51,272 bases of DNA from Acidimicrobiia bacterium (lineage in GTDB: Bacteria; Acidobacteriota; Vicinamibacteria; Vicinamibacterales; UBA2999). Within the stretch, counting starts at the first letter, position 1; every line of letters begins with the position of its first letter. Made by a program: the position numbers and the translations under genes. Below are positions 13,090 through 18,868 of this stretch, piece after piece. The stretch is from positions 1 through 51,272 of the forward strand of contig VFZH01000008.1 in NCBI GenBank assembly GCA_016871255.1. The letters are read 5' to 3'. The notes beneath the pieces were generated by a model, which saw only the letters and a program-made list of their open reading frames with translations, did no database searches and was not told the DNA's origin.

Positions 13090-14373
13090 TCAGTCGTCGC
13101 GACTGACGGTCACCGGCCGCGTGGTGGTCGCCACCCGGCCCAGCGAGTCCCGCAGCGTCAGGCGGATCGTGTACGTCCCCGGCGTTTCGTAGGAGGTCGA
13201 GGCATCAGGGCCACCTCGGGTCGCGGTTTGCCCGTTCCCGAAGTCCCAGAGGTACTCGACGATCGTGGCGCCCGCACTGGTCATCGAATCGGCACCGTGG
13301 ACCCGGACCATCTGACCGACGACCGGATTGGCGGGCGACACCGAAAAACCAGCGGCAATTCCCGCGCCCACGGTCAAAGTGGCCCCGTGCGTCCGGGACT
13401 GCCCGGCGTCATCCGTTACAGTGAGACTGGCCACGTAGTTGCCAGCGTGCGCGTAGCGGTGGGTGACCGTGACACCGCTGTCCACGCCCCCGTCCCCGAA
13501 GTCCCACCTGTACGCGGTCAACGCATGCCCCGGCGCCGCTGCCGAGCCCGTCGCGTTGAATCGCACCACCTGCTCCGCCGATGGCACGCCCGGTGAGAAC
13601 GTGAACGCAGGAACCGGTGGCGGCGGCGGCACAATGGTGACCGCCGCGGACACCGAGGCCGCCGCACCGGTCGGATCCGTCACCCGGAGCGTCACGACGT
13701 ACGTCCGGGCGCGGCCGAACCGATGCGTGGCCACGACGCCGGCGGCGCGCGCCTCCCCCTCGAAGTCCCACTCGTACGTGCACGAAGCCCCACACGCCGT
13801 TCCTTCGTCCGTCGTCTCCGCGGCGTCGAAGCGAACCGCCTGGCCAGGGGTGGCTACCGGGGGGAGCACGGTGAACGCAGGTGCCGGCGCCGTGCGGTTC
13901 GCGGGGCCGGTGAGCGAGACGGACACCACGCGCTCGATCGCGCCCTCGGCGTCTCCGCCGAGCGGGGTCACACGGATGTGCGCCCGATCCCCGGGAACCA
14001 CTGCGCTCACTGGAGGAGCCACGTAATCCACGACCGCCTGCCCGGCACCGTCGGTCACGACCTCCTCCCGGCTGAGCGTGCCGATCGACGCCCGCACGGT
14101 CAGCCGCTGCCCACCGACAGGGCGCACAGCCGCGTCGCGTACGTCGATGACGACACTCGACCGGGAACTCCCGTCCCGCGGCAACTGGTCCGGCCGGGCC
14201 ACGACCGTCACCGATAACCCGAACTCCGACGGGCCGGTCAGGGGCGTGAGCGCCGGGTCCGCCAGGCCACACGCCGTGACCAGCGTTCCGGCCAGTACCG
14301 CCAGCACCCCCGTGGCACGGCGGCGCGGGCGCGGACAGCCAGCTGCCCGCGACACGAGGGTGCCGGGCCTCAT
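13090..14373 (-). CDS. Secreted lipoprotein with Big-type and three PKD domains
   Basis: The N terminus ends in a lipobox (GTLVTACG), so the mature protein should be anchored in a membrane facing the periplasm or surface. Residues about 55-135 resemble a bacterial Ig-like (Big-1/invasin) fold with SSVVIDVRDAAVRPVGG. Three PKD repeats follow, each with a WDF core: YEWDFEG, YRWDFGDG and YLWDFGNG. PKD and Big domains are adhesive or stalk modules. The start overlaps the stop of the preceding lipoprotein by four bases, making it the last gene of the pilus operon. It may be a pilus-linked adhesin or spacer; that role is inference. Confidence 0.8.
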   Translation of the reverse strand: MRPGTLVSRAAGCPRPRRRATGVLAVLAGTLVTACGLADPALTPLTGPSEFGLSVTVVARPDQLPRDGSSRSSVVIDVRDAAVRPVGGQRLTVRASIGTLSREEVVTDGAGQAVVDYVAPPVSAVVPGDRAHIRVTPLGGDAEGAIERVVSVSLTGPANRTAPAPAFTVLPPVATPGQAVRFDAAETTDEGTACGASCTYEWDFEGEARAAGVVATHRFGRARTYVVTLRVTDPTGAAASVSAAVTIVPPPPPVPAFTFSPGVPSAEQVVRFNATGSAAAPGHALTAYRWDFGDGGVDSGVTVTHRYAHAGNYVASLTVTDDAGQSRTHGATLTVGAGIAAGFSVSPANPVVGQMVRVHGADSMTSAGATIVEYLWDFGNGQTATRGGPDASTSYETPGTYTIRLTLRDSLGRVATTTRPVTVSRDD

Positions 14374-15005
14374 GGATTCCCCTGCCCGGGGTCGCTGAAG
14401 TTGCCGAACTGCACGCCGATGCTGCCGGCTGCGATGACTTCGTGACCGGCCAGATCCCGTCCGATGAAAGTGACGTCCGCGATCGTGGCGATGACCACCC
14501 GGCTTGCTCGAAGCCCGGCCAGCGGCGCCTCCTCCTTCGCGGTCCGCCGAACGATCTCGAACTGGTGCGTTGCGGGCTGGTCGGGCGGCACTGTGAAGGT
14601 CGTACCCGACTCGAACGGATAGGGCACGTCCACGCCGGCCACGTTGCGCCCATCGGTCCGCCGATACTGGACCCGGTACCGGGTGATGGTGACCTGATTG
14701 AGCGCCGACGGACTCGCCGGCGCCCCTGGCGGGCCCGGATCCCGCGGCACGAGTCTCAGCGTGACCCGACCGGCATCACTGAAGACGACGGTCTCGGCCG
14801 CGCCACCACCGGCCCCCCGCACGCTCGTGACGACATCAGAGCTCAGCGTGCCGCTGAAGATCGAGGGGCTCGCACCGGACGCAGCCTCCAGCCGGACGAG
14901 GACCACCTGCACCGGCGATCGACCAGGCCCGGTTGCACGTCCGCAACCCGAAGCCGAGGCGAGCGCACACACCGCTGCCGCGAGCCAGAGCCGCACCGTC
15001 GTCAC
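14370..15005 (-). CDS. Conserved lipoprotein of the type IV pilus operon, function unknown
   Basis: From GTG 15005 (GGCGGGG lies about 8 bases upstream) the 211-residue product has a signal peptide ending in the lipobox SASGCG. The mature part is beta-rich, with VTITRYRVQYRRTDGRNVAG, VPYPFESGT and ADVTFIGRDLAGHEV. I recall similar unnamed lipoproteins behind pilQ in Acidobacteriota but know no function. It begins 49 bases after the pilQ stop and its own stop overlaps the PKD gene, so it is translated in the same unit. A pilotin or pilus-secretin accessory role is possible; nothing in the sequence proves it. Confidence 0.75.
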   Translation of the reverse strand: MTTVRLWLAAAVCALASASGCGRATGPGRSPVQVVLVRLEAASGASPSIFSGTLSSDVVTSVRGAGGGAAETVVFSDAGRVTLRLVPRDPGPPGAPASPSALNQVTITRYRVQYRRTDGRNVAGVDVPYPFESGTTFTVPPDQPATHQFEIVRRTAKEEAPLAGLRASRVVIATIADVTFIGRDLAGHEVIAAGSIGVQFGNFSDPGQGNP

Positions 15006-15054
15006 AGGATGCCCCGCCTCGCCACCGACCCCGCACCGGTCACACGCCCGAACC

Positions 15055-16443
15055 TCATGCGCCGCTCCCGGCCGAGGCCGCATCGAGCCGCACGATACGG
15101 GGGGTGATGAAGATCAGCAGCTCGCGGCTCTCATCGCTGACACCGTCGCGTTTGAACAGCCATCCGAGCAACGGGAGCCGGTGGAGTCCCGGCGTGCGAT
15201 CCTGCGCGGCCTGTTCCCGGCTCACGTAGATGCCACCGATCACCGTCGTCTCGCCATCGCTCACGAGCACCTCCGTGACGGCGCGTTGGGTGTCGATCGG
15301 CGGAATGTTGTTGACCGCGCGGCTGAAGTCGGGGGCCGCGTTCTCCACGGCGATCCGCATGATGACCGTGTCCGACGCCGTGATCTGCGGCGTCACGCGC
15401 AGGGTGAGCGCGGCATCCTTGAACGTGACCGTCACCGTGTTGTTAGCCACGGTCTGAATCGGGATCTGGATCCCTTGCGTGATCTCGGCCTCGACGTTGT
15501 TCTGCGTGGCGACACGTGGCGTGGACAGCAGCCGCCCATGCCCATGCCGCTCCAGCGCCGACAGCGCCATGTCCAGGCCGACCGCGCCGTTGACCGAACC
15601 GAGCGCCACGCCGATGGCACTGGTGGCCGCCGCCACCCCGAGGCCCACCGCCGTCGGGGCCGGCGTCCGCAAGTCCTCCCCTGCCTCCGCGCGTCCCGTC
15701 ACCGCAGCCTGATTCGGGAACACCACGGGAAACGTGTTCCCCAACGCCGGGCTCGCCCGGGCACCAACGCCCCATCGCACGCCGAGCGTGCGCGCGAACT
15801 CGCGCGTCGTCTGCACGATCCGCGCCTCGATCTCCACTTGAGGCTGAGGGCGGTCCAACGTGTCCAGGAGTGCGGTCGCCCGGGTCAGGCGTTCGCGCAG
15901 GTCGTGCACGATCAGCGTGTTCGTGCGGGCGTCGGTCTGCACCTGCCCGCGTGGCGAGAGGATCGTGCGCGTGACCAGGCCTTCCAGATCCTCGGCCCTG
16001 GCGTAGCTCAGCGAGCGCGTCAGGACGTCGAGTTCACCCGCGAGCGCCTGTTGTTCCGCCAGCGCCCGGCGCTCGGCCTCCGCCGCCGCCAGCACGGCGA
16101 GTGGCGCAACACGCAGGACGCTCCCCTCGACGGCGTATCCCAGGCGATACGTCTGCAGAATGGTGTCGAGCGCCTGGTCCCAGGGGACGTCGCGCACCAC
16201 CAGGTCCACGGTGCCCTGGATCGACGGGTCCAGGACGACGTTCAACCCGCTGATGCCGGCAAACGCCCGAAGGACGGCCCGCAGATCCGCTCCCTCGAAG
16301 TCGAGTGTCACGGGGTCGCCGGTGTACCGGGCCGCGTCCTGCGCAGCACGCACGCCCGCCGATACCAGCGCGACCCACGCCGCGCCAAGCACGACGAACC
16401 AGATCCTTCGTCGTCGCGAAATCCGCCGGGTCGACTCGCTCAT
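15055..16443 (-). CDS. pilQ: Type IV pilus secretin PilQ, short form
   Basis: Forms the outer-membrane channel for the pilus. After a signal segment (about residues 12-33) come an STN-like domain (VTLDFEGADLRAVLRAFAGI, IQGTVDLVVRDVPWDQALD), a secretin N-domain (TNTLIVHDL) and the C-terminal secretin core with VEIEARIVQT, STPRVATQNN and the final TPGLHRLPLLGWLFKRD. At 462 residues it is much shorter than proteobacterial PilQ (about 700) because the peptidoglycan-binding AMIN domains are missing. The ATG overlaps the pilNOP stop by four bases. The short secretin plus the fused NOP protein suggest a compacted pilus base. Confidence 0.9.
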   Translation of the reverse strand: MSESTRRISRRRRIWFVVLGAAWVALVSAGVRAAQDAARYTGDPVTLDFEGADLRAVLRAFAGISGLNVVLDPSIQGTVDLVVRDVPWDQALDTILQTYRLGYAVEGSVLRVAPLAVLAAAEAERRALAEQQALAGELDVLTRSLSYARAEDLEGLVTRTILSPRGQVQTDARTNTLIVHDLRERLTRATALLDTLDRPQPQVEIEARIVQTTREFARTLGVRWGVGARASPALGNTFPVVFPNQAAVTGRAEAGEDLRTPAPTAVGLGVAAATSAIGVALGSVNGAVGLDMALSALERHGHGRLLSTPRVATQNNVEAEITQGIQIPIQTVANNTVTVTFKDAALTLRVTPQITASDTVIMRIAVENAAPDFSRAVNNIPPIDTQRAVTEVLVSDGETTVIGGIYVSREQAAQDRTPGLHRLPLLGWLFKRDGVSDESRELLIFITPRIVRLDAASAGSGA

Positions 16444-17783
16444 CGCGTTCCCGCTTCCCGCTTCACCACACGGAGGACCACGTCGGCTCCACCCGTCGCT
16501 CCACGCGCCGCTCCACGCGCCGCCCCATCCATCTGCATCACCAGTGCACCCGGCCCGATGGTCTCGACGCGACCGTCGAGTACCCGATCGCCGGGCCGCA
16601 ACCGATAGTTGCGGTCGCGCCCCTGCACCAGCGCGACGTCACCCGCCGGGCTTCGTACGGTCCCCCTGAGCACGATCTCTGCCACCGCGAGTCCGGCCAC
16701 TCCTGACGGCCCCGTGTCGGACACGGGGGGGCGGGTCGCCGGGGCATGCTCTGTTCCCACGAACGGATCACGGTGCCTCGGGTCGGTTCCCTCCACGCCG
16801 GACCCGGCGTCTCCCCGAATGCGAGGCCGTGCGGCCGGCGCCATCTCGAAGACGTTCAGGTCGCACTGCGCGCTCAGTGTCGTGTCGCCGGGCACGGCCG
16901 TGTGCCGAGCCCGGATCTCCAGCGCACTCACGGTGACCACGACCGATGCGCTCCCGATTCGATCGAGGAAGGCCAGCAGGCCGTCGTAGGTGGCCGTCAG
17001 CTCCACACGTACCGGCAGCACGGCGGGCACAGGGGATCGCTCGGGCGCAAGCGGCGCGAAGGCACCGAGCACCACGCCTGTCTCCTGCGAGACCCGATGC
17101 AGGTCGCGCAGCAAACCCACGGTTAGCGTGTCTCGCCTGTCCCGGCCTCCAGGCGACGCCAGGTCGTCTTCGGCGGCCTGATGCTCCAGTCCGTCAGCGC
17201 GAAGGCGGTTCGCCGCCTCGTCCGCCATCTCGGTTTCGATGACGAACTCGAGCTCGCCAGGCCCGGGCGCCTCCCTGTCCGCGGATGCCGTGGACCGGCT
17301 GCTGACGACCCGCACCGCGGCGAAGACCGGCTCGACGGCGAGTGCCTCCACGAAGGCCGCCAGTGTCGCCAGCGACAAGGCCCTGCCCGACAGCGTAGCG
17401 CCCGCCGGCCCGAGCACGATCGCAGTCAATCGCACGTCGTCGGGCGAGCGTCGGGCGACCGCAGAGAGCAGGCGCACGGCCTGTTCCCGCGCGCGCTGGA
17501 TCAACCCGGCGGGATCCCGCGCGTCCTGCACCACATCGCGGCGGGCCTGCGGCGCGGCGGCTTCCGTCGCTCGATCCGGGCCCGGCTGCCCCTGGACGGC
17601 CGCCTCCAACCCTCGATCGCCCCCCGGCTCGGGCAGGATCCCCGCGCTCCATGCCGCCACGCCGGTGGCGATCCCTGCAAGGGCTGCTGCGGTCACGCCC
17701 ATCGCCCGCGACGAAGCCCACCACTCACGCCGCCCGTGTCCTCCCCGACCGGTCGCCGGGCCCAGCAGATTGATGCGGGTCAT
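16440..17783 (-). CDS. PilN-PilO-PilP fusion, type IV pilus alignment subcomplex
   Basis: One continuous 447-residue frame carries three proteins that are normally separate. Residues 1-190: MTRINLL, the PilN N-terminal motif that binds PilM, one membrane helix (about 28-50) and the PilN periplasmic fold (DDVRLTAIVLGPAGATLSG). Residues about 205-320: PilO-like fold (PVRVELTATYDGLLAFLDRI, VVVTVSALEIRAR), without its own membrane helix. Residues about 365-447: PilP-like (IVLRGTVRSPAGDVALVQG, YRLRPGDRVLDGRVETIGP), without its lipobox. These proteins link PilM to PilQ across the periplasm. The start overlaps the pilM stop and the stop overlaps pilQ, four bases each. Confidence 0.85.
   Translation of the reverse strand: MTRINLLGPATGRGGHGRREWWASSRAMGVTAAALAGIATGVAAWSAGILPEPGGDRGLEAAVQGQPGPDRATEAAAPQARRDVVQDARDPAGLIQRAREQAVRLLSAVARRSPDDVRLTAIVLGPAGATLSGRALSLATLAAFVEALAVEPVFAAVRVVSSRSTASADREAPGPGELEFVIETEMADEAANRLRADGLEHQAAEDDLASPGGRDRRDTLTVGLLRDLHRVSQETGVVLGAFAPLAPERSPVPAVLPVRVELTATYDGLLAFLDRIGSASVVVTVSALEIRARHTAVPGDTTLSAQCDLNVFEMAPAARPRIRGDAGSGVEGTDPRHRDPFVGTEHAPATRPPVSDTGPSGVAGLAVAEIVLRGTVRSPAGDVALVQGRDRNYRLRPGDRVLDGRVETIGPGALVMQMDGAARGAARGATGGADVVLRVVKREAGTR
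16498..16521. repeat. Two tandem copies of a 12-base unit in the pilNOP C-terminus
   Basis: GCTCCACGCGCC occurs twice head to tail. It codes for the Ala/Arg/Gly-rich segment GARGAR just after the PilP-like domain and could change length by slippage without breaking the frame. Confidence 0.5.
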
Positions 17784-18868
17784 CGGTCCCCCGCTCGCCG
17801 CAGTGCCAGGCCCACGGCCACGGCCGCCGTTGAAGGGTGGCCCGGATCCTCGTCGCTGTCTCCGCGGCCTGCCCTCGCGATGACCCGGAACGGGTCGAGC
17901 ATCGCGACCGGCGCCTGCAGTCGGGCCTCGAGCGACCGGGCGAACCCCGGCAGCCGCGAGGCCCCGCCGCTCATGAACACCTCGTCCACGGTTTCAACGG
18001 ATTCCACTGCGCGGAAGGCGTCGATCGTCGCCGCCACTTCCTGCATCAGGCGCTCGGTCGCCGCCTCCAGCACGTCTGTCACGTCCTCGCGGGAAGCGCC
18101 GTCCACGGCGCGACCGGCCTCGAGCCCTTCGGCCATCTCGAACGTCAGGCCGAGTTCGTGCTGAAGCGCCTCCGTGCAGGCATTCCCGCCAAGCGGCAGG
18201 TCGCGCGTGGCCAGCATCCGGCTACCCATCAGCAGGCTGACTGTCGTCAGGCTCGCCCCGGCGTTGACGAGTGCCACGCACCGCCCGGGCGCCGGGTCGT
18301 AGTTCAGGACGAAGGTGTTCTGGACGGCGAACGCGTCCACATCGACGACGACGGCCCCGAGGCCCGCCCGCTCCACCACCGCCAGGTAGCCGGCGATCCG
18401 CTCCCGCCTGGCCGCCACCAGCAGCACATCCATCGCGTCGCGCGCCGACGAGGGCCCTTCACGCCTCAGCACCTGGTAGTCCAGGGCCACGTCCTGCAGC
18501 GGGATCGGAATCTGGTACGACGCCTCCCACCGCACGGCCTCCTCCAGTTCCTCAGCCGTCATGGGAGGGAGCGACACTCTCCGGACGACGGCCGCGCTGC
18601 CTGACACCGAGACCGCCACCGGGAGGCCGGCGCACCCCTCGTGCCGCAGCACACGGCGGACCGCGGCAGCAACGGCTGCCGGATCGAGGACCGTGCTGTC
18701 CACGATGGCGCCCCGGGGAACCGGTTCGCTGTCCCAGATCCCCAGCGCGTATCCGCCCGCCGTCTCCTTCAACTGCACGGCTTTCACCGCGCTCGACCCG
18801 ATGTCGAGGCCGATGGAGCTTGCCCCGATGGACGAGCTGTCCCGCCGCCACCGAACCAGCGTCCGCAC
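17780..18868 (-). CDS. pilM: Type IV pilus actin-like ATPase PilM
   Basis: Cytoplasmic actin-like protein that binds the N terminus of PilN and links the pilus base to the motor. SIGLDIGSSAVKAVQLKE is the phosphate-1 motif, LPPMTAEELEEAVRWEASYQ follows the family, and VFMSGGASRLPGF is the adenosine motif. From GTG 18868 it is 362 residues, close to the usual 350. The start is chosen because homology begins at residue 15; the frame stays open upstream without conserved sequence. It heads pilM-pilNOP-pilQ-lipoprotein-PKD. The motor ATPases PilB/PilT and PilC are not in the window. Confidence 0.92.
   Translation of the reverse strand: MRTLVRWRRDSSSIGASSIGLDIGSSAVKAVQLKETAGGYALGIWDSEPVPRGAIVDSTVLDPAAVAAAVRRVLRHEGCAGLPVAVSVSGSAAVVRRVSLPPMTAEELEEAVRWEASYQIPIPLQDVALDYQVLRREGPSSARDAMDVLLVAARRERIAGYLAVVERAGLGAVVVDVDAFAVQNTFVLNYDPAPGRCVALVNAGASLTTVSLLMGSRMLATRDLPLGGNACTEALQHELGLTFEMAEGLEAGRAVDGASREDVTDVLEAATERLMQEVAATIDAFRAVESVETVDEVFMSGGASRLPGFARSLEARLQAPVAMLDPFRVIARAGRGDSDEDPGHPSTAAVAVGLALRRAGDR

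Follow-up and report, generated by a model that had tools for sequence, protein, structure and literature searches.

Fusion of PilN, PilO and PilP in one reading frame of a type IVa pilus locus from the Vicinamibacterales

One reading frame with three alignment-complex domains

The locus described here raises the question whether a single polypeptide can take the place of PilN, PilO and PilP in a type IVa pilus (T4aP) machine. Within the window (the whole stretch of 51,272 nucleotides that was analysed), one frame lies between pilM (TIGR01175) and the gene for a PilQ secretin (TIGR02515), as in the T4aP alignment subcomplex, and was originally predicted to be a PilN-PilO-PilP fusion. The open reading frame, Pfam searches, the separate genes of relatives and a structure model all agreed with this assignment (Table 1), including the four-base ATGA overlaps on both sides (pilM stop and fusion start at 17780-17783; pilQ at 16440-16443). 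The gene order around the fusion was kept in the closest relative, and at 18 of the 27 loci compared in relatives a homologue of the conserved protein downstream of pilQ occupied the same place. This protein is followed by a PKD-repeat protein (13090-14373, minus strand); homologues of both were present in most of these loci.

Table 1. Positions of the fused gene, its parts and associated genes (window coordinates, except where a contig is named).
Feature	Position	Strand	Remarks
Fused pilN-pilO-pilP gene	16440..17783	(-)	Single uninterrupted 447-aa ORF
PilN part, residues 1-190	17214..17783	(-)	INLL motif, membrane helix, Gly/Pro-rich stretch, ferredoxin-like core 104-186
Sole membrane helix of the fusion, residues 21-48	17640..17723	(-)	Hydropathy; model helix 21-48
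PilO core, residues 211-312; PilO membrane helix and PilO coiled coil absent	16848..17153	(-)	Pfam PilO; 2rjz
RDPFV, conserved motif of the PilP arm (residues 338-342; disordered linker)	16758..16772	(-)	Invariant in alignment
PilP/GspC-HR beta domain, residues 361-440	16464..16703	(-)	Identity to separate PilP; 2lc4
pilM (start codon uncertain)	17780..18862	(-)	TIGR01175, E 1.4e-69
pilQ, 462 aa, N0 directly after signal peptide, without AMIN	15055..16443	(-)	TIGR02515, E 1.3e-116
Conserved protein downstream of pilQ, putative pil-locus member	14370..15083	(-)	Same place in relatives
PilB without MshEN	G000:C25:6412-7701 (L168)		429 aa

Pfam PilN matched residues 104-184 (E 3.4e-7) and Pfam PilO residues 223-312 (E 1.3e-6), both above the gathering score. 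The PilO match began at profile position 54, which indicates that the fusion lacks the N-terminal portion of PilO. Pfam PilP gave no match in the fused protein; residues 336-416 were 36-49% identical to the products of relatives' separate pilP genes, and the separate PilP of one relative matched Pfam PilP with an E of 6e-5, just under the curated cut-off. The PilN motif INLL is contained in residues 1-8 (MTRINLLG), and the RDPF motif of PilP corresponds to residues 338-341. The fusion was collinear end to end with eight relatives, whose rows in this alignment were artificial concatenations of separate PilN, PilO core and PilP, and the INLL-type residues and RDPFV were invariant. The PilN part was collinear with 22 separate PilN proteins. 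The alignment to separate N, O and P proteins includes two reading-through rows, from genomes G141 and G053 (see below).

An AlphaFold2 model of the fusion was built with 40 aligned rows and had a mean pLDDT of 76, with three confident folded blocks and low confidence at residues 1-23, 49-67, ~200-206 and 327-356. In this alignment-based model, residues 100-186 resembled the periplasmic domain of GspL/XcpY (5n7l; Z 9.6, rmsd 1.8, 76 residues aligned), GspL periplasmic domains serving as the PilN counterpart, with no PilN structure among the fold matches listed. Residues 220-315 resembled PilO (2rjz; Z 13.1, rmsd 2.3, 91 aligned) and residues 359-444 resembled PilP (2lc4; Z 10.2, rmsd 2.9, 82 aligned); a broader Foldseek search agreed for these two blocks. 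The PilN, PilO-like and PilP-like folds that had been anticipated for the three segments were thus recovered, the first two by Pfam as well as by the model. The pTM was 0.47, and the model gives nothing firm on the packing between the domains.

A single membrane helix had also been predicted, and the only candidate found by hydropathy or in the model across the fusion was that at residues ~21-48. Residues 49-70 were Gly/Pro-rich, the same stretch being a coiled coil in the PilN of relatives. The membrane helix and coiled coil of PilO were absent from the fusion (those separate PilO proteins that were inspected do have the helix), and neither the lipobox, as expected from the prediction, nor any signal sequence was found before the PilP part. 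The related claim that two membrane anchors had been removed did not hold. In this order separate PilP is normally a signal-peptide protein that almost never has a credible lipobox: a loose lipobox pattern occurred in 11 of 101 separate PilP sequences, only that of locus L150 was plausible by eye, and in most of the 11 the Cys appeared, again by eye, to lie within the hydrophobic core, before an AQ-type cleavage site. What the fusion lost is therefore one helix (from PilO) and one signal peptide (from PilP). Production of PilO and PilP as individual proteins from internal translation starts was rejected as an alternative, since such proteins would have no export signal or helix.

These losses also bear on the question whether a sequencing or assembly error merged three normal genes into one frame. 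The genome is 3.9 Mb in 243 contigs, and the full fusion occurred in no second genome of the 193-genome class sample. However, the fusion entirely lacks the PilO helix, the PilO coiled coil and the PilP signal peptide, rather than just reading through them, the reading frame and third-position GC are continuous over both domain junctions, and a PilO-PilP fusion is present in five other genomes, which makes an error of this kind extremely improbable.

The PilO part also matched GspM models weakly (T2SSM_b, E 0.0096; XpsM, E 0.0009), as might be expected if the fused protein served the T2SS-like machine of this genome and not the type IV pilus. We consider this very unlikely. The fusion is not encoded together with T2SS GspD/E/F but between pilM and a PilQ-type secretin gene, and the T2SS-like operon, on contig C4 (G000:C4:54000-66464; L169:1080-9011, minus strand), has its own separate PilM-, PilN-, PilO/GspM- and GspC-like genes (the last two assigned by eye), GspE, GspF, two pseudopilins and a secretin with TPR repeats and a C-terminal cohesin-like domain. 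The presence of separate pilO and pilP at another site in the genome had been held to speak against a fusion. Such genes do exist on C4, but they belong to another machine, and the fusion therefore stands for the type IV pilus machine. In the whole genome there was one PilO-family match and one match to the composite profile, and Pfam PilP matched nowhere.

Recurrence of PilO-PilP joining among relatives

The window fusion was the only full-length single-frame N-O-P match among 193 genomes of the class, a sample that contains no genus-mate of the window genome (G000). No comparable match was found in the other 42 genomes of the family, the other 161 of the order or the remaining class sample. 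A search of the fused protein against all GTDB contigs found no relative, and PilM found only Myxococcota/Geobacter-type relatives (35-38% identity) in the same contigs.

The pil loci of 110 relatives were read, of which 106 had a readable PilO/PilP arrangement. PilO and PilP were separate in 101, and five held both in one ORF with PilN separate (G141, G053, G134, G133 and G070; loci L069, L070, L071, L072 and L074, respectively). The proposed search for the same fusion thus returned smaller PilO-PilP fusions in five relatives and, among the 193 class genomes, no second N-O-P fusion. As in the window, the PilP beta domain of these five is joined to the PilO end and the PilP signal is lost; unlike in the window, PilN is separate and the N-terminal segment of PilO is retained, and four of them show a clear membrane helix there. 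The hydropathy of this segment stays below 1.5 in G070. G141 and G053 were rejected as N-O-P fusions, for their PilN and PilO-PilP share a frame number but are separated by a stop (TGA and TAG, respectively). With pilN and pilO-pilP in the same frame and a single in-frame stop between them, a three-way fusion could arise from this layout by few changes.

A tree built on the secretin core of PilQ placed G005, whose genes are separate, as sister to the window genome (support 0.97). G070 was sister to the unfused G072 of the same genus, and the fused genomes of family f8 were found in three places. On this tree, PilO-PilP joining arose at least five times including the window, with at least four further origins within the order, and the fusion in the window is derived within its family. 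The repeated independent PilO-PilP fusions indicate that the O-P junction is tolerated.

Losses of AMIN from PilQ and MshEN from PilB

The shortening of PilQ and its lack of AMIN, both part of the original prediction, were confirmed: about 40 residues separate the start from N0 in the window, compared with ~180-640 in most relatives. When the extra N-terminal region of three relatives was excised, two of the regions matched Pfam AMIN (E 1e-5 and 5e-8); the third excised region and two full-length PilQ frames of relatives gave no AMIN match. The simplification that had been suggested for the machine was supported and reaches further than claimed, as PilB of the window genome also lacks MshEN. 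It starts at position 169 of the PilB model, with short N-terminal remnants visible; PilB of G005 retains MshEN (E 7.5e-27). AMIN domains bind peptidoglycan and, in Pseudomonas, position the alignment complex at the cell pole by way of PilP (PMC5285504), polar PilQ in Myxococcus requires AMIN domains (PMC10653833), and MshEN is a c-di-GMP receptor domain (PMC5013675).

Both losses recur in G070 alongside its independent PilO-PilP fusion (no AMIN in PilQ; no MshEN in PilB, L171:2085-3371), while in its genus-mate G072 the genes are separate, the N-terminus of PilQ is long and PilB is full-length. The other fused genomes were mixed. PilQ was AMIN-less in G053, G133 and G134, and one AMIN-like region was kept in G141; PilB was full-length in G134 and G141 and had lost only the first 48 model positions in G053, with MshEN kept. 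AMIN loss does not need a fusion, as PilQ is also AMIN-less in two genera of family f8 that keep PilO and PilP separate, g80 and g85 (L073, L077 and L088-L093). The short PilQ of L034 was dismissed as an artefact of start-codon choice, with ~220 codons between the PilP stop and N0. When fusions were placed at random by branch length, the probability of at least four of five falling on AMIN-less branches was P ~0.005, an exploratory value for a hypothesis formed after the data, on a chosen subset of the tree and with branches that carry both changes counted as AMIN-less.

We tentatively suggest that the fusion may be part of a convergent reduction of T4aP, in which PilP-PilO joining, loss of AMIN from PilQ and loss of MshEN from PilB came together in at least two unrelated lineages (the window genome and G070, of another family). 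This would leave a machine free of peptidoglycan anchoring and of c-di-GMP control of PilB, with the covalent chain replacing these constraints, and the window would be the extreme case in which PilN was joined too. If the pairing of O-P fusion with the AMIN and MshEN losses holds, it would amount to a natural experiment on placement and control parts versus assembly parts.

The main rival explanation is that the pil locus is decaying, so that the fusion, the losses of AMIN and MshEN and the fast divergence are steps in losing an unneeded pilus machine. Three parts are indeed reduced together, the window PilQ core is on a long branch (0.26 versus 0.10 for the sister), as relaxed selection could also give, and the fused protein diverges much faster than the neighbouring gene products, with 28-49% identity to relatives for the fused protein and up to 74% for PilQ. 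On the other hand, the pil genes are all intact ORFs with coupled overlaps, and the fusion retains INLL, RDPF and its domain cores. PilB, PilT (TIGR01420), PilC, a PilA-like pilin and PilD, the prepilin peptidase, are encoded together on contig C25 in a single stretch, all intact, and PilO-PilP fusions recur elsewhere with intact genes. Overall, we regard decay of the locus as unlikely.

Proposed role of the single chain and comparison with known systems

The fusion is probably a functional single-chain alignment protein of a slimmed-down T4aP machine. In the arrangement that we propose, the N-terminal INLL peptide would bind PilM in the cytoplasm and the one membrane helix would cross the inner membrane. 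The ferredoxin-like cores of PilN and PilO, with a linker of ~24 residues between them, would pair in cis like the separate PilN/PilO heterodimer, and a flexible arm of ~48 residues with RDPF would lead to the PilP beta domain, docking on N0 of PilQ. The layout from INLL to the PilP domain suggests that the fused chain spans the distance from PilM to the secretin. The PilM-PilN, PilN-PilO and PilP-PilQ N0 contacts are known from other systems (PMC4471445, PMC6916266, PMC5285504). The absence of AMIN is expected to leave the machine unattached to the pole, and PilB, lacking MshEN, is expected to be free of c-di-GMP control through that domain. The 1:1:1 ratio proposed earlier follows only if the fused chain stays uncleaved, as it may well do.

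Should the fused machine be functional, a diderm T4aP could do without a second membrane helix in each PilN/PilO pair, without the PilO coiled coil and without a PilP that diffuses freely, a point relevant to the disputed function of the PilNOP ring. In a PilNOP made as one chain, stoichiometry and connectivity are set, and structural studies would have a convenient tool in it.

Compared with PilN, PilO and PilP of the T4aP of Pseudomonas, Myxococcus and Neisseria, the window has the same three folds, identically ordered and flanked by pilM and pilQ, and retains the INLL and RDPF motifs. It differs in being one polypeptide with one membrane helix instead of two and no PilO coiled coil, and in a PilP part that is not exported separately and has no lipobox. 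It looks like a stripped-down form of a well-known machine, not a new machine.

Fusing alignment-complex proteins is already known: PilM and PilN are joined in Clostridioides difficile, in Campylobacterota and in GspL/PulL (equal to PilM plus PilN), and an FcpMNO fusion is part of the flagellar cage of Arcobacter, also of the Campylobacterota (PMC6916266, PMC10191384, PMC11870540). Like the window fusion, these place adjacent alignment-complex proteins in one chain; unlike it, they join M to N (and to O in Arcobacter), and none described there is an N-O-P fusion or includes PilP. The literature searched contained no account of PilO-PilP or PilN-PilO-PilP joining. Newly observed here is that, in the window genome, the fusion coincides with a PilQ without AMIN domains and a PilB without its MshEN domain, some of these losses recurring in unrelated relatives. 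The window PilQ resembles the AMIN-less secretin HofQ in aligning over nearly the full HofQ model (NF010083) and in lacking AMIN, but its score as a PilQ is far higher. Unlike the domains of the fusion, HofN, HofO and HofP are individual proteins.
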